Assembly (NCBI GenBank): GCA_018433765.1
Contig: JAHDQO010000002.1
Location: forward strand, 1-64,000
DNA: 64,000 nucleotides
From: Tissierellales bacterium
GTDB taxonomy: Bacteria; Bacillota; Clostridia; Tissierellales; Sedimentibacteraceae
Direction of reading: 5' to 3'
Below, in pieces: positions 4,216 through 13,562 of the stretch (positions are counted from its first letter, which is position 1; each line of letters begins with the position of its first letter). The position numbers were made by a program, and so were the translations under genes. The notes under the pieces were generated by a model, which did not search any database, was not told the origin of the DNA, and worked only from the letters and a program-made list of their open reading frames with translations.

Positions 4216-4253
4216 ATCTTATAATAAATATAAATAATTAAATGAGGTTTATT

Positions 4254-6158
4254 TTGGACAGAAAATTTATTAAAGATATAAAAAAACTTGTAAATAATTA
4301 TAAGGAAGACAAATCATATTTAGATATAATTAGATATATTATTTATGCTAGTTGTCAATTATTATTTTATAGTAAAATATCTGATAATAATTTAAACTTG
4401 GAAACTGTGGAATTATTATCAGAAGACAAATTATATAAAAGAGAAATGCAGATATTTAAAGAATACTGCTGTTTTGATATGCAAAATGATAAAATAAAAG
4501 ACCAATTAACAACTATACTGATAAAACATAAAAATGAATTTATTAATTTATATAATTTTATTCCTGGTGAACTATATGAAAAAATGCTAACAGTTAGGGA
4601 AAAAAATTATTTAGGCCAAGTTTATACACCAAATTATATAATTAAATTAATGCTTAATAAAACTTTTACAATGAAACCTATAAATAAGAGAATTAAATTA
4701 CTAGATCCAGCATGTGGTGGAGGGTATTTTCTTATTGAGGCATTTAAAGAAATACGTGATGTGTTTATAGAACAACAACCTAAAAAACCAATAGAAGAAA
4801 TAGATAAATACATATTAGAAAACATCATATATGGTAATGATATGGATAAATTTTCGGTATTTTTAAGTAAAATGGGTTTATTATTTAACAGTAATTGCAA
4901 TAATGTTTCTTTAAACATTTATAACTTTGATTTTTTATTAGAAGAGTTTAATTCTCTTGAAAACAAGTTTGACATAATAATAGGTAATCCACCCTATATA
5001 GGGCACAAAAAAACAGATAAAAATTATAAAAGAAAACTTCTTACAGAATATAGTGAGGTTTATCATGATAAATCAGATATATCTTATTGCTTTTTAAAGA
5101 AAGGTAGAGATATTTTAAAGCATGAAGGATGTCTATCGTACATTACATCAAGATATTTCTTAGAAGCACAATATGCTGATAGATTGAGAGAGTTCGTTAA
5201 AAATAAATTTAAAATAGATTCTATGATAGATTTTAATGGCTTAAGAGTTTTTAAAAATGTCAACATAAGTCCAATCATAATTAATTTAATAAATAAAAAT
5301 AGTTTCAATAATAAATTTAATTTTAAAATATATAATGACAACTTTGAAAATTTTAAAGATTATGAATATAAGCAAAGCAATTTAAAAAATAAATATTGGA
5401 AAATTCTTACCAGTGAGGAAGAGAAGCTATTCAATAAAATTGATAGTAAGTGTAATTATAAATTAAAAGATAAATGTAAAATAAGGCAGGGAATTATCAC
5501 AGGTTATGATAAAGCTTTTATTGTTAGTGACAAAGAAATTGAAACTTTTAATCTAGAAATACGTCTATTAAGAAAGTGGATAAAAAATAGCAATATTAGT
5601 AAGGAAGGGATTGAATATGCAAATAAATATGTAATCTATACAAATTTGATTAACGATGTAAATAATTATCCAAACACTATAAATTATCTTAACAACTTTA
5701 AAAATAGGTTAAGTCAGAGAAGAGAATGTAAGCTTGGTATAAGGAAATGGTATGAGTTACAATGGGGTAGAGATATAGAAAAGTTTGAACAAGCCAAAAT
5801 AGTATTTCCATATAAAGCCAAAAATAATATTTTCTATTATGATAAAGAAAAGTATTTTTGTAGTGCCGATGTTTATTTTATTACAAATTTAACTTTGGAT
5901 ATATCATATGAATATTTGACAGCTTATTTAAATTCTAAGATATTTGAGTTTTACTTTAAATGTATTGGCAAAAAAGTTGGGGAGAAATTGTATGAATATT
6001 ATCCTAATAAAATACTTGATTTAGGAATATATATACCTAATCTTGATAAAATCAAAAAAATAACAAATAATGCAAATCATTATATTGACATGTGGCTTAC
6101 TGAGGTATTTAATATAGATAAGACAGATAAAGAGATTATATATGAATATATAAAATGA
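4254..6158 (+). CDS. Solitary Eco57I-type N6-adenine DNA methyltransferase
   Basis: DNA adenine methyltransferase of the gamma (TaqI/Eco57I) class. The SAM-binding motif I reads L-D-P-A-C-G-G-G-Y-F near residue 150 and the catalytic motif IV is N-P-P-Y near residue 245. The C-terminal half resembles a TaqI-like target-recognition domain. At 634 aa there is no room for an Eco57I endonuclease domain, and no restriction gene lies nearby, so it looks like an orphan methylase. I prefer the TTG start at 4254 because TGAGGT lies 5 bases upstream; the ATG at 4242 overlaps that site and has none of its own. An SLH protein gene follows after 13 bases, probably co-transcribed. It could be an equivalent of the sporulation-linked orphan methylase CamA of Clostridioides difficile, but this is inference. 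Confidence 0.85.
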   Translation: MDRKFIKDIKKLVNNYKEDKSYLDIIRYIIYASCQLLFYSKISDNNLNLETVELLSEDKLYKREMQIFKEYCCFDMQNDKIKDQLTTILIKHKNEFINLYNFIPGELYEKMLTVREKNYLGQVYTPNYIIKLMLNKTFTMKPINKRIKLLDPACGGGYFLIEAFKEIRDVFIEQQPKKPIEEIDKYILENIIYGNDMDKFSVFLSKMGLLFNSNCNNVSLNIYNFDFLLEEFNSLENKFDIIIGNPPYIGHKKTDKNYKRKLLTEYSEVYHDKSDISYCFLKKGRDILKHEGCLSYITSRYFLEAQYADRLREFVKNKFKIDSMIDFNGLRVFKNVNISPIIINLINKNSFNNKFNFKIYNDNFENFKDYEYKQSNLKNKYWKILTSEEEKLFNKIDSKCNYKLKDKCKIRQGIITGYDKAFIVSDKEIETFNLEIRLLRKWIKNSNISKEGIEYANKYVIYTNLINDVNNYPNTINYLNNFKNRLSQRRECKLGIRKWYELQWGRDIEKFEQAKIVFPYKAKNNIFYYDKEKYFCSADVYFITNLTLDISYEYLTAYLNSKIFEFYFKCIGKKVGEKLYEYYPNKILDLGIYIPNLDKIKKITNNANHYIDMWLTEVFNIDKTDKEIIYEYIK

Positions 6159-6171
6159 GGAGGTGTCATAA

Positions 6172-7779
6172 ATGAAAAAGAGATTTATTGCATGTTTACT
6201 GATAATAGTTTTTTTATTTAGTCAAAATATATTTGCAAGTATGTTTTATTTTGATGTATATAATCATTGGGCTGAAAACTATATTTATTGGGCTAGTAAT
6301 GATGTTAAAATATATAAAGGATACTTAGATGGGTCATTTAGACCAGAAAACAGTATAACTAAAGCAGAATATATAGCTATTTTATTTAGAGCAGCAGATA
6401 ATCAAAAATTAATTAACGAAATATATGAATCTGATATGTCTTATAAGGATTTTTCTATTAAGCATTGGGCTTATACATATGCAATTTCTATTAGAGAATT
6501 AATAAATAATAAGTCATTAGGATATTTATTTGAAGATATTTTTCCTAAAGAAGAATTAATGCCGGATGAACCAATAACAAGAGAAGAAGCAGCTGCTTTA
6601 ACTGTAGCTTTTTCTGCACCTGCGTTAACAAATAAAATACCTCCTTTTGAGGATGTAAATAGTTCATCTACATATTATGATGTAATTAAGAAATTATACA
6701 ATAATGGAATAATAGAAGGTTATGACGACAATACTTTCAGGGCAAATGAATATATAACTAGAGCTGAATCTGCTACAATTATTAATAGAATCTTTAATGA
6801 TATGAAATATAGTAAAGATATATACTTAAAAGGATTAAAATTTTTACCTCTTAATGGAGAAGATGTTTTTTCACTTTTTGGAAATTACGATTATCAGAAT
6901 TTAAGCGAAATGGATAAAGAATATATAAAAGTTAAAAACACTTTAGAATATACTTCTTTTGGAGGATTTATTTTTCCGGAAGATCAGCATTTATATGATA
7001 GTAAACCTATTAAGACATTGCTAAAATTAAGAAGTAAAGGCTATCATAATAAAGTGGGTGTTAATTTCTATTTATTAAAATATGGTAATCTTGCTGAAAA
7101 TGAAAATAATCAATTAGCGCAAGAACTTTTAGTTGAAATAGCAGACAATAATGATTTAAAAGATTCTGATATTATGCAAATGTTTTATGAAATCATTAAA
7201 TGCTCAACTCAAGAGAATTTTTATAATTCTGCTCTTAGTAATTGGAGTAGTAGAAGTGATGATGATAAAGTTAAAGCAAATATAGTATTCCTAAAATTTG
7301 CATATTACATTGATACAAATAATAAAGATATGCTGAGTAGTTTAATGCAGGATGAAAATAATCATTTGAGCTTAGAATATTCTGATAAATTAGTTACTAA
7401 TAGTACACAATCAGCAATAGATGTTCAGCAACCAAATTCTGATAATACTGAAAATAAAGTTGATGATGAAAATGAAATTAATGATGAAAATAATGTTCAT
7501 GTAGAAGACAGTAATGATGGGTTAATCATGGATCATGAAGAAACAAATGAAGATATTGAAAAGGAAACATATGAAGAAATTATGCTGACAGATATATTAA
7601 ATAGGACATATGTTTTATATTATCTAGAATTATATGAAAAGGCTTTTAATGATTTAGTAGATGAATATAAGCTGATTAAGAAAACTAAAATTTATGATAA
7701 GAACAAATTAGAAATTGAAGATGAAATTAAAGGAACTTTAAAGAAAATAAAGTCAGGGCTGTTAATTAAACAGCCCTAA
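6172..7779 (+). CDS. Surface protein with three N-terminal SLH domains
   Basis: Secreted protein: the first 22 residues are a signal peptide (KKR, hydrophobic core, FAS). Three S-layer homology repeats follow within residues 25-215, recognisable by H-W-A-x-x-Y-I, G-Y-x-D-G-S-F-R-P and I-T-R-A/E-E segments. SLH domains bind pyruvylated wall polymer, which fits csaB at 22.3 kb. The remaining 300 residues have no family I know; residues 410-465 are very acidic and rich in Asn and Glu, like a linker. The GAGGAGGTG site overlaps the stop of the methylase gene, so the two are probably translated from one mRNA. The terminator stem overlaps the last codons. Confidence 0.9.
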   Translation: MKKRFIACLLIIVFLFSQNIFASMFYFDVYNHWAENYIYWASNDVKIYKGYLDGSFRPENSITKAEYIAILFRAADNQKLINEIYESDMSYKDFSIKHWAYTYAISIRELINNKSLGYLFEDIFPKEELMPDEPITREEAAALTVAFSAPALTNKIPPFEDVNSSSTYYDVIKKLYNNGIIEGYDDNTFRANEYITRAESATIINRIFNDMKYSKDIYLKGLKFLPLNGEDVFSLFGNYDYQNLSEMDKEYIKVKNTLEYTSFGGFIFPEDQHLYDSKPIKTLLKLRSKGYHNKVGVNFYLLKYGNLAENENNQLAQELLVEIADNNDLKDSDIMQMFYEIIKCSTQENFYNSALSNWSSRSDDDKVKANIVFLKFAYYIDTNNKDMLSSLMQDENNHLSLEYSDKLVTNSTQSAIDVQQPNSDNTENKVDDENEINDENNVHVEDSNDGLIMDHEETNEDIEKETYEEIMLTDILNRTYVLYYLELYEKAFNDLVDEYKLIKKTKIYDKNKLEIEDEIKGTLKKIKSGLLIKQP

Positions 7780-7787
7780 ATTTATTC
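7755..7787. terminator. Terminator overlapping the end of the SLH gene
   Basis: A 9-bp GC-rich stem (AGGGCTGTT with its complement) with a 5-base loop, followed by AAATTTATT. It lies between two convergent gene ends, and so could also end the minus-strand split gene once that gene is rejoined. Confidence 0.7.
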
Positions 7788-7928
7788 GTTAGTATCTTGT
7801 GCTTCTACACAGTCGCATCCGTGACAATTACAATTATCATCTATCTGCTTAGGAAAAAGTCTAGGGAATGTAGAACATATCTGAGCAGCATCTGGAGCTA
7901 ATACAGGATATCCTGTCGATAGTACACA
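7782..7928 (-). pseudogene. Separated 3' part of the gene interrupted by the recombinase element
   Basis: Minus-strand coding sequence with no start of its own: the frame runs into a stop 17 codons upstream of the att core, inside the element. From the core it reads C-V-L-S-T-G-Y-P-V-L-A-P-D-A-A-Q and ends in a cysteine-rich tail (C-N-C-H-G-C-D-C) before the stop at 7782. The 5' part is at 12559-13356. Joining the two across one copy of GATAGTACACA gives a continuous 314-residue protein, of which this piece supplies the last 44 residues beyond the core. It is an unexpressed 3' exon-like fragment unless the element is excised. Confidence 0.9.
7918..7928. repeat. Left attachment site core (attL)
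   Basis: GATAGTACACA, identical to the copy at 12548-12558. The host-side arm to the left carries CCTGT (7912-7916) and the element-side arm to the right carries ACAAAAT (7933-7939). Read on the minus strand the core supplies codons Cys-Val-Leu and the first two bases of Ser of the split gene. Confidence 0.88.
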
Positions 7929-7964
7929 CAATACAAAATCACAAATTTTGATTATGATTAGATT

Positions 7965-9458
7965 TTAATATTTCCAATCAATACTTATTTCCTTATCTTT
8001 TATATAAATCATATTGATAATCTTACTAGCAGTATCTTTTTTTTCTTGAATGCTTAAATCGTGCCATTTTTCTAATGCTCTTTCTACGTTTAGCACTTGG
8101 GGTATAGGAAACATATTATCATGTGATTCTTTTAATAAGTAATTTTGTAAATCCTGTTTTTCTGCTTCAAGTTTGTTTATTCTTTTGTTTATATATTTTG
8201 TAGTAATATTTTCTGCTTCTAACAAGCTGTCTATTAACTTATTAATTTTATTATCTATTTGTAATAGCTTTAACTTTATATTATTATCATAATTAGTTTG
8301 AATATTATTTTTATGCTTCTCGCTGCTTAATTCTTTTAATTTTAATAAAAAAACTGTTTCTACTGAATTTTCTATATCATTAACTCGCTTAGATTTAGCA
8401 TCACATACTTTTAACAGCGAATTTCCTATGCATCTGAAGTAAGAAATATCACCTGCTGTATTTATACTCATAGAATAATTACAGTATCCGCATTTAACTA
8501 AACCAGACAGCCATGTTTTTTTACTCTTACCGGTATTCTTTATTTGTTTGTTACTAGACAGCTTATTTTGACATACAATCCACGTTTTACTATCAATTAT
8601 ACCCATATGTGGTGCAAGTGAAATATGATAACCAGAGAGGCTTTTAAGCTTGTTACCTTGCGTTTGATTATCACCAAATGAGAATAAACCTTGTTTACCA
8701 TTGAATTCATTTATATCATTAACCATAATGCAGTTTTTTGATTGAAGAAAGCTGTATATATCTGCATCAGCTTTAACATAAACAGGATTTTTTAAAGTTC
8801 TGCTTATTTTATGAGAATCCCAGTTTTTATTTGAATGTGATTTTATGTTCTTGTCGTTCAGAAAAGTAGATATTTGTCTTAAAGACATATTTTCTTGAGA
8901 GTACATACGATACATTTCCTTTACTGTATCAGCATATTTATTAGGTACCAGCATGGCACTTTTTTTATTATCAATTATTGCTTCTTTTTTATCAAAACCA
9001 TAGGGCAAATTACCACCTAAAAACATACCCTTTTTACCTCTTGCATAATAAGCATCTTTAATTCTCTGCTGTATAGTTTCTCTTTCAAGTTGAGCAAAAA
9101 CAGCTGTAATATTTAGCATGGCTCTACCCATAGGTGTAGAGGTGTCAAATTTTTCTGTAACTGATACAAACTGAACGTTATGATTATTGAATACTTTCAT
9201 TATATTTGAAAAATCTAATAATGATCTGCTGATACGGTCTAGCTTATAAACTATGACTTTATGTATGATGCCTTTTTCTATATTTTGTATCATTTCTTCA
9301 AAAGCAGGACGTTTTATGTTACTGCCAGAAAAGCCTTTGTCAGTAAAAACTTTATAATTATTTTTTTTAGATACTTCTTTTTTACAAAATTCTATTTGAT
9401 ATTCTATTGAAATACTATCTTTTTTATCTATTGATTGTCTAGTATATATTGCTTCCAA
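7965..9458 (-). CDS. Large serine recombinase (site-specific integrase/excisionase)
   Basis: Enzyme that cuts and rejoins the att sites of the element. The catalytic domain (residues 1-150) has the nucleophile S9 in Y-T-R-Q-S and the active-site Arg segment D-R-I-S-R-S. A recombinase domain follows at about 155-265. A zinc ribbon (C-G-Y-C about residue 315, with two more cysteines some 25 and 32 residues later) and a coiled coil at about 385-430 complete the large-serine-recombinase plan; 497 aa is normal. The start is TTG at 9458, with only a weak AAAGAG site 10 bases upstream. The gene ends 37 bp from attL, as is usual for such elements. It is the same enzyme class as SpoIVCA of the skin element. 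No clear sigma-E or sigma-A promoter was visible. Confidence 0.95.
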   Translation of the reverse strand: MEAIYTRQSIDKKDSISIEYQIEFCKKEVSKKNNYKVFTDKGFSGSNIKRPAFEEMIQNIEKGIIHKVIVYKLDRISRSLLDFSNIMKVFNNHNVQFVSVTEKFDTSTPMGRAMLNITAVFAQLERETIQQRIKDAYYARGKKGMFLGGNLPYGFDKKEAIIDNKKSAMLVPNKYADTVKEMYRMYSQENMSLRQISTFLNDKNIKSHSNKNWDSHKISRTLKNPVYVKADADIYSFLQSKNCIMVNDINEFNGKQGLFSFGDNQTQGNKLKSLSGYHISLAPHMGIIDSKTWIVCQNKLSSNKQIKNTGKSKKTWLSGLVKCGYCNYSMSINTAGDISYFRCIGNSLLKVCDAKSKRVNDIENSVETVFLLKLKELSSEKHKNNIQTNYDNNIKLKLLQIDNKINKLIDSLLEAENITTKYINKRINKLEAEKQDLQNYLLKESHDNMFPIPQVLNVERALEKWHDLSIQEKKDTASKIINMIYIKDKEISIDWKY

Positions 9459-9655
9459 TATTTATCAACTCTTTAAATTTTTATTTTTTACTATATTATT
9501 CAAGTATCATACATAAAATAATAAAAAATTTAAGCTAAGCCATTTTAAATTTTACTTACATTAATTAAAATTAAGTTAGAAATCTTATTATTGGGGTATA
9601 ATACTTTCATATATTCATATAACAATTTTTAGCTAATCATCTAAGGGAGAATTTT

Positions 9656-10852
9656 ATGAAAACAAAAAAGTATAAAAATAGCAAATTTTATGTAAAGAAC
9701 AAGTATTTAGTTTTAGCTGGAGTATTACTTGCTCAAGTTACTATAGCAGGTCTTTATGCTTGGAGTATTTTTGGAACTGCTATTCAAGATGAAAGAGGAT
9801 GGGGAGCAGATGAAATTTTATTTACTTATGCACTTGCACAATTTGTATTTGCATTCAGTACTCTTTTCTCAGGAAGATTAGTAGACAAAAAAGGACCTAG
9901 ACCAGCACTTGTTATTGGAGGATTATTATATGGCGGCGGATTAATCTTATCTTCATTCACAACTTCTCCATTTATGCTATATATAACTTACGGAGTATTA
10001 ACTGGAGCTGGAGTTGGATTTGTATATGTATGTCCTCTTTCTACTTTAATCAAATGGTTTCCAAATAACAAAGGTATGATTACTGGATTATCAGTAGGTA
10101 TCTTTGGTGGAGGAAGTATCATTTTTAAAGAAGTTATTTCTAAATTTTTAGTAGGTTCAGATGTGTCTGGTGCATTCTTATATCTTGGTTTGATTTCTGT
10201 TATTTTAATATTAATTGGAGCAGTGCTAACAAATAACCCAGAAGGGTTTGTAAAGAAATCAACTGAAAAAAATGAAGAAGATTACACTACTGGTGAAATG
10301 ATAAAAACTCCTAAATTCTTCAAAACTTGGTTCATGTATTGGCTAGCAGTAATACCAGGATTACTAGTTTTAGGTGCTGCTAAAAACATAGGAATTGAAG
10401 TAGCGGGTTTAGATGCAACTTCTGCGGCAGAAATTATTTCTATACTTGCAATTTCAAATGCTGGAAGTCGTCTAGTTTCTGGAACTTTATCTGATAAGTT
10501 TGGTGTATTAAATGTATTAAAAGCAGTATTTGTAATTACAGTTGTTTCATTATTATCATTAAGCTTCTTAGCTGATATTAAACCAATGTTTTATTTTGGA
10601 TTAATTGGTGTTGCAGTTGGATATGGTGGATTTTTAGCATTATTCCCAACATTTATAAATCAAGAATTCGGCTCATTTAGATATGCATCTAACTATGGTG
10701 TAATATATCAAGCATATGGATTAGCTGCATTATCCGGTATCTTTATTAAAACAGCAGTAGGAAGTTTTACAAACACATTCATTATTTCTGCTATGGCTTC
10801 AGCGATTGGTCTAATATTATCATTCTGTATTAAAGAAAGAAAATCTGTATAA
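9656..10852 (+). CDS. OFA-family MFS transporter (oxalate/formate antiporter-like)
   Basis: Twelve-helix major facilitator protein of 398 aa. The first helix reads A-Q-V-T-I-A-G-L-Y-A-W-S-I-F-G and is followed by G-R-L-V-D-K-K-G-P-R, the MFS loop 2-3 motif; both are typical of the OFA branch. The substrate could be oxalate, formate or another small monocarboxylate; family membership does not decide it. AAGGGAG precedes the ATG by 7 bases, and TATAAT lies at 9597-9602 with a poor -35. It is cargo of the recombinase element, divergent from the recombinase gene, and has its own terminator. Confidence 0.85.
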   Translation: MKTKKYKNSKFYVKNKYLVLAGVLLAQVTIAGLYAWSIFGTAIQDERGWGADEILFTYALAQFVFAFSTLFSGRLVDKKGPRPALVIGGLLYGGGLILSSFTTSPFMLYITYGVLTGAGVGFVYVCPLSTLIKWFPNNKGMITGLSVGIFGGGSIIFKEVISKFLVGSDVSGAFLYLGLISVILILIGAVLTNNPEGFVKKSTEKNEEDYTTGEMIKTPKFFKTWFMYWLAVIPGLLVLGAAKNIGIEVAGLDATSAAEIISILAISNAGSRLVSGTLSDKFGVLNVLKAVFVITVVSLLSLSFLADIKPMFYFGLIGVAVGYGGFLALFPTFINQEFGSFRYASNYGVIYQAYGLAALSGIFIKTAVGSFTNTFIISAMASAIGLILSFCIKERKSV

Positions 10853-10981
10853 TTTGTTTATATTAGTAAAAGAGAATTCTTAAACTATTAATAATCTAAG
10901 AAAACTGAATAAAAAAATTATGAGAAATAAGTATAAAAATATTTAATTTTAATAAATAATTAGTGTTTGCTAGATAGATTT

Positions 10982-11028
10982 AAGTGGTTAATAATTAGTC
11001 AATTTGACAGTTATTAGCCACTTTTTTA
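10982..11028 (+). terminator. Intrinsic terminator after the OFA transporter
   Basis: A 13-base stem (AAGTGGTTAATAA pairing with TTATTAGCCACTT, one G-U pair) with a 16-base loop and a run of seven T. Confidence 0.8.
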
Positions 11029-11134
11029 ATATTCTTTAAAATACTATATGAAAACAATTACTATGAAATATAGTAATTTAAGTAATTATGTACAAGAGGT
11101 TATACATAAATTTAAACAAGAGAGGGTGATTAGA

Positions 11135-11287
11135 GTGCCTAAAAAGCAAAAAGCAAAATATAAAATAATAAATATTGTTCCTGAATTAACACAAGAAGAA
11201 CGGAGTGCAAGAAAACAGGAAGTGTTAAAGACACTCTATAAAATACGTCCTGACTTATTTGAAAATGTTAAAATTAATAATGAATAA
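11135..11287 (+). CDS. Small basic protein of unknown function in the recombinase element
   Basis: A 50-residue protein, Lys/Arg/Glu-rich, with P-E-L-T-Q-E-E-R in the middle and K-T-L-Y-K-I-R-P-D-L near the end. I choose the GTG at 11135 because AGAGG lies 9 bases upstream; a longer frame back to the ATG at 11048 exists without a ribosome site, giving 79 aa. I recognise no domain. Size and charge would fit a DNA-binding accessory factor of the recombinase, such as a directionality factor, but nothing in the sequence proves it. Confidence 0.5.
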   Translation: MPKKQKAKYKIINIVPELTQEERSARKQEVLKTLYKIRPDLFENVKINNE

Positions 11288-11416
11288 AATAATGAAATGT
11301 GTAGAAGTTAATAAGCATATAAAAAATGAGGACATGCGTATATTTGTAAATACTATAATAATTTAGGTTTATGGAATTAAAGATTAACTGATATTTTTAT
11401 AATCTAAAATAATTTC

Positions 11417-11445
11417 TTGTAAACACAAGTAATAAATGGTATAAT
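11417..11445 (+). promoter_or_regulatory. Promoter of the GNAT gene with a dyad over the -35
   Basis: TTGTAA at 11417-11422, a 17-base spacer and TATAAT at 11440-11445 with an extended TGG. The -35 region overlaps a small dyad, CTTGT-AAAC-ACAAG at 11416-11429, which could be an operator. Confidence 0.55.
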
Positions 11446-11525
11446 TTAACAATTAAAATGAATATATCGTACAATTAAATAAATATTGAATTTAATTTAT
11501 GTAATAATAATGAAAGGAGTAGTAT

Positions 11526-12149
11526 ATGTATAATCTCAATAATTTAAAGGTTAGAAACATTAAAAAAGAAGATGAAAAAGGTAGTGCAAAAGTTTTTTTA
11601 GAAGGGTTTAACAATAAAATTAAAAATTTATCACATATACCTGAAGAACGTACATATGATTTTTTAATTGATTTTGGAATTGTGAAAAATTATTATAAAG
11701 AAGGCTATTTTGTTGCTGAAGTAGATGGTGAGATTTTAGGTTTAATGCTCCTTAGATGGAAGGGGCAAGAAAAACAAGAAGATAAAGTGTTAGATTTTTC
11801 TGTATTAGTTAAAAAATATGGACTTCCGTTAGTTGTAAGAACTATGATTAAGGTAAATATAGTCAACTATAATCCTAAAAAAGGAGAAATGTATATAGAG
11901 CATATCGCAGTACTAGAAAAAGCTAGAGGACTTGGAATAGGAAGCATATTACTAGAGAGGGCTTTTAATATGGCTAAATCTAGAAATGATATAAATAAAG
12001 TAACGTTATCAGTTATAGAAGAAAATCATAGAGCTCATAAATTGTATAATAAGTTAGGATTTGAGGATACTCATGATACAACTAGCCTTTTAGGAAAATG
12101 GGCAGTTGGTGTGTATAAATTTACCAAAATGGAAAAGTGTATTGTATGA
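11526..12149 (+). CDS. GNAT-family N-acetyltransferase
   Basis: Acetyl-CoA-dependent acetyltransferase of 207 aa. The acetyl-CoA binding motif A is visible as A-R-G-L-G-I-G-S near residues 138-145, preceded by a beta strand I-E-H-I-A-V, and the late N-x-x-A-x-x-L-Y-x-x-x-G-F segment (H-R-A-H-K-L-Y-N-K-L-G-F) is present. The substrate cannot be read from sequence. AAAGGAG precedes the ATG. It is cargo of the recombinase element with its own promoter. Confidence 0.85.
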   Translation: MYNLNNLKVRNIKKEDEKGSAKVFLEGFNNKIKNLSHIPEERTYDFLIDFGIVKNYYKEGYFVAEVDGEILGLMLLRWKGQEKQEDKVLDFSVLVKKYGLPLVVRTMIKVNIVNYNPKKGEMYIEHIAVLEKARGLGIGSILLERAFNMAKSRNDINKVTLSVIEENHRAHKLYNKLGFEDTHDTTSLLGKWAVGVYKFTKMEKCIV

Positions 12150-12220
12150 TAAATTTTACTTTTGCTAAATAAAGATGCGAATAGGGTTTTTGCTTTGGAT
12201 AAATTACCATTATATAGTAC

Positions 12221-12249
12221 TTGAAATCAGCATATAATTACATTATAAT
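12221..12249 (+). promoter_or_regulatory. Promoter of the 79-aa gene at the right end of the element
   Basis: TTGAAA at 12221-12226, 17 bases, then a perfect TATAAT at 12244-12249; the start codon is 34 bases further on. Confidence 0.6.
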
Positions 12250-12282
12250 CGAACATAAGTTCTATATAAAGGAGTGAAAGCT

Positions 12283-12522
12283 ATGAAAGTTTTAAATCAT
12301 CCAATTGATGTTATAGCTGTATTTGATAAAGAGGGGAATATAAATCCTTATAAATTCAAGCATAAAAATATACCTATTGTCGTTCAAAAGGTGAAAAAAT
12401 ATTATGAAGAAAAGCTTGCAGGAAATAAGCGTATAGTTTTTATATGTGAGCATAATGAAGGGGATTTTTATGAACTTAAATATGAAATAGATAGTCATAA
12501 ATGGTATTTATTTAAGAGATAA
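12283..12522 (+). CDS. Small conserved-looking protein next to attR, function unknown
   Basis: A 79-residue protein starting M-K-V-L-N-H-P-I-D-V-I-A-V-F and ending L-K-Y-E-I-D-S-H-K-W-Y-L-F-K-R, with an alternating beta pattern. The ATG at 12283 is preceded by AAAGGAG at 8 bases; an in-frame GTG at 12274 overlaps that site and is rejected. The gene ends 25 bp before the right att core and overlaps the short out-of-place tail of the split gene by 15 bp. I know no function. Position and size make it a second candidate for a recombination directionality factor, but the fold could equally be that of a general small protein. Confidence 0.7.
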   Translation: MKVLNHPIDVIAVFDKEGNINPYKFKHKNIPIVVQKVKKYYEEKLAGNKRIVFICEHNEGDFYELKYEIDSHKWYLFKR

Positions 12523-13356
12523 TGAATATTGTGTTTTTATATTTTGTGATAGTACACATAGCTGCACAGGTACTACTATTTTCTTCTCACAAGTGATACA
12601 AAGTGAAATTATTAGATTAATTCTTACTGCTCCTGTAAACGGATCAATGTCTATGTCTCTTGTAATACTGTTTGTTGCAAGTCTTGCTTCACAGCTTATG
12701 TTACAGAATTCTGCAAAACGAGGTAAAAATGCTGTTTCAAATACTGATGGTATGCATAATTCAAAAAAGTTTGTTAAAACAAGTGGCTGACATGTTGGAG
12801 CTATTTCAACTTTTGAAGTTAAAGTTATTAAATTTTCTTTACATTTACGATCTATATAAACTACGTCTATTTCTACAATAATGTATCCTGTTATTTCTAT
12901 ATTTTGTGTACCAAATACAGGTGTACCTTCTTCAAATTCGTCGCAATATTCAGTATTAGCATAAATTAACTTTTCGCTAAATGTACCATCAGGACCTACT
13001 ACTTTGTAGTCACCTTTACAATTTTGAACAAATTCTGCTCCTGATAAAGTAGTAATTGGTTTGAGTTTCAAATTTTCTGGATCATCAATGTTTTTTGGAT
13101 TAAAGAATTTTCTGCATCGTATGTCTTCTATTCTGACAATATTTACATTTGGGCCTATAGATGGTTCAAAAAGCTGATCTGATACAGTTTTTAAACCCTG
13201 CAAATTAAAAAGTGCTGCATCAAATACTTTTTGTACATATATAGGTTCTGTTACAACATCACATAAAGAACCGTTCCATTTGCAACCTGTTTCTGCTGTA
13301 CAACATTTGTCTGATAAACCTAAACTTGCAGATTTTTTTCTATTTGAATTTTTCAT
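12508..13356 (-). pseudogene. 5' part of the interrupted gene, with a 12-residue tail read from the element
   Basis: The present frame gives 282 aa. Residues 1-270, up to V-Q-L-C-V-L-S, belong to the original gene; the last 12 residues (Q-N-I-K-T-Q-Y-S-L-S-L-K) are read from element DNA beyond the att core. The original end lies at 7782-7917. There is no signal peptide or membrane helix; the protein has about 15 cysteines, including a K-C-C-T-A-E-T-G-C start region and C-I-T-C near the end. AAAGGAGG precedes the ATG at normal distance. I do not know the family. A cysteine-rich cytoplasm-made protein in a spore former may be a spore coat or exosporium component, but this is inference. The shortened form may or may not be functional. 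Confidence 0.88.
12548..12558. repeat. Right attachment site core (attR)
   Basis: GATAGTACACA, identical to 7918-7928. The element-side arm carries ATTTTGT (12541-12547) and the host-side arm carries ACAGG (12566-12570). Together with attL this predicts attP arms ATTTTGT/ACAAAAT and attB arms CCTGT/ACAGG. Confidence 0.88.
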
Positions 13357-13562
13357 ACTAAACCTCCTTTAAATATACTTACTTACAATATATTCTTTTA
13401 TATTCTTCTTGTTACAAGTTAAAAAATAAAAACAAATATGGAAAAGTTGTTTAATTTATAATAAAATAGATATACAATTTAATAAATAGACGATTGCTTG
13501 TAAAAAATAAAGCTAGCAAAAGCTAAGTCAATATTAACTAATATAATTAAGGAGGAAACAAT

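Follow-up and report, generated by a model that had tools for sequence, protein, structure and literature searches.

A 4.6-kb serine-recombinase element splits a putative sporulation gene in Tissierellales and is probably excised in the mother cell

A gene in the genome of a Tissierellales bacterium is cut in two by a 4.6-kb element that encodes a large serine recombinase, and the reading that we consider probable, by roughly two chances in three, is that this is a skin-type mobile element with a new target gene, which would be excised in the mother cell so that the gene is rejoined. The window, that is, the whole stretch of 64,000 nucleotides that was analyzed, holds on its minus strand, in this order, the 5' part of the gene, a short core sequence, the element, a second copy of the core, and the 3' part of the gene; the core copies lie 4,630 bp apart, which is the size of the element. 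The features are as follows.

7782 to 7917, minus strand: 3' part of the interrupted gene, 136 nt with the stop codon, assigned by joining and by homologues, undecayed
7918 to 7928, minus strand: att core TGTGTACTATC at the boundary between the element and the 3' part, assigned by the repeat and by frame joining
7965 to 9458, minus strand: large serine recombinase, 497 aa, TTG start, with Resolvase, Recombinase and zinc-ribbon domains; PHROG integrase family
9656 to 10852, plus strand: MFS transporter of the L-lactate type, cargo (NF049980, 350.9 bits against a cut-off of 320)
11135 to 11287 (longer frame from 11048), plus strand: 50-aa protein, possible directionality or accessory factor, of a family encoded upstream of related recombinases
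11526 to 12149, plus strand: GNAT acetyltransferase, cargo (PF00583, E 4e-18)
12283 to 12522, plus strand: 79-aa protein encoded at the element's far end, with a relative in locus L066
12548 to 12558, minus strand: att core TGTGTACTATC at the boundary between the 5' part and the element, assigned by the repeat and by frame joining
12559 to 13356, minus strand: 5' part of the interrupted spore-former gene, 266 codons, single copy, with homologues
13386 to 13415, minus strand: sigma-K-like promoter GTAACA-N14-GAATATATT of the interrupted gene, conserved, labeled by resemblance to published boxes

A sequence-only reading of this DNA had noticed identical 11-bp cores at 7918 and 12548, and these are indeed the only exact pair in the window: the plus-strand core GATAGTACACA is matched exactly just twice, and four sites in total are found when up to one mismatch is allowed, compared to 0.9 expected. 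The repeat taken alone is modest evidence because, although the longest stretch that the two 50-bp junction pieces have in common measures 11 bp, against a mean of 5.5 over 2,000 shuffles, the shuffles also reach a maximum of 11. What settles the split gene is the restoration of the frame together with the homologues. Excision in silico joins 798, 11, and 136 nt into a 945-nt gene of 314 codons plus a stop, free of internal stops, and the truncated frame (12508-13356, minus strand, 282 residues) owes its final 12 residues to the element, both as that reading had it. Its account of the 3' end stood in part: the matching segment is where it had been placed, but the absence of a start codon did not hold, the program-called ORF at 7782-7931 being 49 aa long with a TTG start within the element. 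The reading had further suggested a search for intact homologues across residues 270/271; when this was run, all 29 fetched homologues (L002-L030, the best-scoring ones) proved continuous across the junction, aligning there as ...VPVQLCVLSTGF...FP.LFP.QI..., and the reading was not refuted. That the truncated protein works alone, with the 3' part dispensable, is accordingly very hard to credit: the frame does retain 270 of the 314 residues and the promoter, but the segment past the junction is conserved in every one of these homologues, and all 31 rows, including two joined by script, have an identical CVLST at the insertion point.

The interrupted gene, of which the 5' part is present in a single copy in its own genome, is sporulation-linked as judged from its co-occurrence with SpoIVA and from the resemblance of its promoter. 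Counting its own genome in each case, the gene occurs in 62 of 100 relatives, in 83 of the 249 genomes of the order, and in 7 of 391 genomes of a class-wide sample; its own genome is the sole representative of the genus among the 249. SpoIVA is found in 91 of the same 249 genomes; both genes are present in 81, the gene alone in 2, SpoIVA alone in 10, and neither in 156 (Fisher p 2e-51, a value that ignores shared ancestry). Upstream of the gene, GTAACA-N14/15-GAATATATT was identified in all 29 loci in a search anchored on GAATATA, with 25 exact matches, three with one mismatch, and one with two; the window was included in this set and L018, where the contig starts too close to the gene, was not. 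Since the -35 element of sigma-K is described as AC, versus ATA for sigma-E, and CATATAAT as the sigma-K -10 box of sigK (PMC3789822), the motif looks sigma-K-like, a resemblance rather than proof. A profile of 14 members yielded no usable family match in Pfam, NCBIfam, or PDB; two single-member Pfam matches, with E values of 0.03 and 0.49, were disregarded, and a single-sequence AlphaFold model of the 5' part, with a mean pLDDT of 38, was discarded. A coat or exosporium identity of the product would be a guess. On the far side of the element, the 3' part is almost abutted by the end of an SLH-domain protein gene (6172-7779), itself adjoining an Eco57I-like restriction-modification methylase gene (4242-6158).

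The gene is interrupted at the same core in a second genome. In G051, from a different family of the same order, the 5' part of the gene terminates in ...CVLSTNT*, and the 3' part lies on a separate contig, about 23 bp from a serine recombinase that is 49% identical to that of the window. Beyond this recombinase are a phage-type regulator, an SbcC-like protein, and RecT, and the register of the shared core, TGTGTATTATC, is that of TGTGTACTATC in the window. As read from the two contigs between which it is divided, a prophage in G051 is inserted in the same gene at the same core as the window element; across L049-L180 (132 loci), target-gene fragments were found in the window and in G051 only. 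The recombinase closest to that of G051 in the tree described below comes from an IMG/VR contig, L065, where a stretch resembling attP by eye, TTTGTTCTATCAAC, occurs about 30 bp after the phage recombinase (L065:6500-6560) and is perhaps an intact attP for the split-gene core. A viral scan with the L065 recombinase recovered itself and two 24% relatives, and nothing else.

Three further genomes of the order show irregular copies of the gene that we did not count as insertions. In G016, an incomplete relative (L033 = G016:C159), the gene falls into two frames with in-frame TGA, and the TGA codons could reflect genuine decay or sequencing error. In G061, there is a single continuous match that carries extra residues. 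In G247, the gene meets a contig break: two contigs, L046 (C51, ending at 7613) and L047 (C70, at its start), one bearing the 5' part and the other the 3' part, stop inside the same core (TGCGTTCT), so that a mixed population of integrated and excised forms or an assembly break are both possible; no related recombinase was found in G247, and the joined-site pattern had no match in G247 or G051.

The undecayed state of the 3' parts bears on the main competing explanation, already raised in the sequence-only reading, namely, that a mobile island simply inactivated the gene. In its present form, this explanation holds that a dispensable spore gene was permanently inactivated by an insertion too recent for the 3' part to have decayed, and we regard it as unlikely, at somewhat under one chance in five. 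In its favor, the source assembly represents the integrated state alone, with neither the excised form nor a circle among its contigs; 10 of the 91 SpoIVA genomes, some of them incomplete, have no detectable copy of the gene; and gene-disrupting insertions by large serine recombinases are reported as common (PMC10083194). Against it, insertions at the same core are found separately in two families, each with the two gene parts intact, the recombinase domains look intact by sequence, and related recombinases reside in a second sporulation gene. When the mean identity of the 3' segment was compared to that of the 5' segment over 31 rows, the window (z -0.92) and G051 (z -0.22) both fell within the spread of intact genes, which disfavors simple inactivation, with the qualification that a recent insertion would look alike: the preserved 3' parts fit either continued use or recent insertion.

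The second sporulation gene is pdaB. The window recombinase as a lone query recovered no relatives in genome or viral contigs, and the nearest phage and plasmid records, at 31.5% and 40%, are silent on targets. With an alignment of two recombinases, those of the window and G051, as the query, we obtained 36 viral loci and 80 genome loci, the latter being the best 80 of 378. In 12 of these 116 related loci (L067, L101, L102, L105-L112, and L157), the recombinase has half of a pdaB gene no more than 1.6 kb away, within 350 bp in 11 loci and at 1.5 kb in one, and 10 of the first 12 genome matches fall among these 12. Four of the halves were compared to NCBIfam and gave TIGR02764 (PdaB) as the top match each time, under the whole-protein cut-off, as expected for halves rather than whole proteins; the other eight were assigned by similarity to these four. 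In nine of the ten such genomes, the 3' half of pdaB is a frame of its own, 87-105 aa long; for four of these genomes, it is the half already beside the recombinase, and for the other five, both halves were located. Two of the five have the halves on one contig, which delimits elements of about 11.9 kb in Defluviitalea phaphyphila Alg1 and about 35.0 kb in Clostridia bacterium UC5.1-1D10. Exact repeats at the pdaB junctions are short or missing. The loci have the appearance of a set of pdaB-intervening elements.

In a quick tree of 62 of the 130 recombinases, those of the window, G051, L065, and L068 group together (SH-aLRT 97, without bootstrap), and the pdaB rows require 5 changes compared to 11.2 when shuffled, a contrast that is favored by the retention of near copies among these rows, such copies having been pruned from the others. 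Neither pdaB nor the window target is present in the other 104 of the 116 loci, and their sites are mostly unassigned, so that a preference for spore genes is not established for the clade as a whole. Given that a relative carries a prophage at the same point, and that relatives of the recombinase reside in a second split spore gene, the interrupted gene is probably rejoined in sporulation.

The sequence-only reading was right in recognizing a serine-recombinase element, as the domains of its single recombinase attest, and in calling it small; "minimal" was wrong because two of its five ORFs, the MFS transporter and the GNAT acetyltransferase, are cargo-like. The 3' end of the recombinase gene points to the core beside the 3' part of the interrupted gene. 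A PHROGs scan of four element proteins, with the MFS protein outside the scan, matched only integrase and general acetyltransferase families, that is, no phage genes besides the integrase. The 79-aa protein is 47% identical to a protein of the IMG/VR locus L066, encoded 1.6 kb past a related recombinase, its only relative outside the window genome among the loci compared.

The 50-aa protein is a possible directionality or accessory factor, by virtue of its family. Members of this family, first gathered at a loose threshold (E 0.05 in the first search round), are encoded upstream of the recombinase, on the same strand, in 86 of 131 related loci and comprise 42 distinct sequences; no matches were found among shuffled frames. 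A model built from the related-locus sequences, with the window protein excluded, ranked 11135-11287 first among the 676 frames of the window (E 4.8e-9, the next being 0.21). The window protein itself is encoded on the strand opposite to the recombinase, 1.7 kb from the start of the latter, and no member of the family is encoded upstream of the recombinase in G051, in L065, or in 11 of the 12 pdaB loci, L101 being the exception.

The scenario that we favor would run as follows. The gene would be needed late, in the mother cell, where the recombinase, assisted by a directionality factor, possibly the 50-aa protein, would excise the element from the chromosome and rejoin the gene exactly; the spore would retain the integrated copy, and the element would be inherited through it. 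The element would thus be of little cost to the host, and the transporter and the acetyltransferase would be inherited along with it. Probably, one integration module is common to the element and to phages that use the same site. In support of this scenario, we count site-specific insertion, frame restoration, and occupation of the same site by a prophage; against it, an assembly that represents the integrated state alone, the strand and distance of the 50-aa partner and the patchy occurrence of its family, the lack of an excess of promoters in the element, and the fact that serine recombinases interrupt genes of many kinds (PMC10083194). The promoter scan of the element, which used the motif of the target gene's own promoter, gave 12, 2, and 0 matches at three thresholds compared to 24, 4, and 0.3 in shuffled expectation. 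This result would also suit occasional excision in all growth phases, as in a prophage or island, with a fraction of cells carrying the whole gene and with developmental control absent. Such behavior has a counterpart in yin, for which the joined yabG gene is described as present at every time point and increasing later (PMC10747680), but related recombinases cluster at pdaB and at the gene studied here, which suggests that sporulation genes are favored sites, and we give this explanation little weight, about one chance in eight.

Split sporulation genes named in the literature include sigK, spsM, spoVFB, spoVR, gerE, and yabG (PMC4191935, PMC10747680), and the skin, spsM, gin, and yin cases are described as established by experiment (PMC5025042, PMC4191935, PMC5595907, PMC10747680). 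The initial claim of a new target gene was borne out to the extent that the gene is absent from those named in the literature examined; in titles and abstracts, neither split pdaB nor the interrupted gene appeared among the matches listed, a search that mostly lay outside subscription literature. The closest parallel is the skin element of Clostridioides difficile, likewise a serine-recombinase element in a mother-cell sporulation gene that is rejoined by excision; there, however, the target is sigK, and both excision and the role of CD1234 as directionality factor have been proven (PMC5025042), whereas the window element is known from sequence alone and sigK is unbroken in its genome. The SP-beta prophage and reduced SP-beta-like elements in spsM present full and reduced forms at one site, like the G051 prophage and the window element, in a different gene and a different host group (PMC4191935). 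As in the window element, phage structural genes are absent from gin, in gerE of Bacillus cereus ATCC10987, but gin is 28.6 kb long and has three recombinases (PMC5595907). The yin element, in yabG of Clostridium botulinum, is also a clostridial element in a late sporulation gene, with a 14-bp repeat, but is prophage-like and has a different target (PMC10747680). Alicyclobacillus phage MMB025, a phage that matches a prophage within a sporulation gene, offers a further parallel, differing in its size of 105 kb and its target, sigK (PMC13141910). The pdaB loci share related recombinases in a sporulation gene and differ in the target and in the size of the two measured elements.

A broader possibility, which we put forward tentatively and at slightly less than even chances, is that a clostridial lineage of serine recombinases has specialized for genes whose use is confined to the doomed mother cell, with at least two targets, the CVLST gene and pdaB, reached via prophages, mid-size elements, and the 4.6-kb cargo element, all of which would be excised in sporulation. 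The present case extends the list of target genes by one whose family has no name that we could find in Pfam or NCBIfam, and the setting is unusually clear: the same codons are occupied by a compact element in one family and by a prophage in another, with related recombinases at pdaB. The split pdaB genes of Defluviitalea phaphyphila Alg1 and Clostridia bacterium UC5.1-1D10 make the idea testable in culture. The observations also point to a spore-former-linked, probably mother-cell, protein family that deserves study and, if the specialization of the lineage is real, mobile DNA that lives by splitting spore genes would be widespread in Clostridia.
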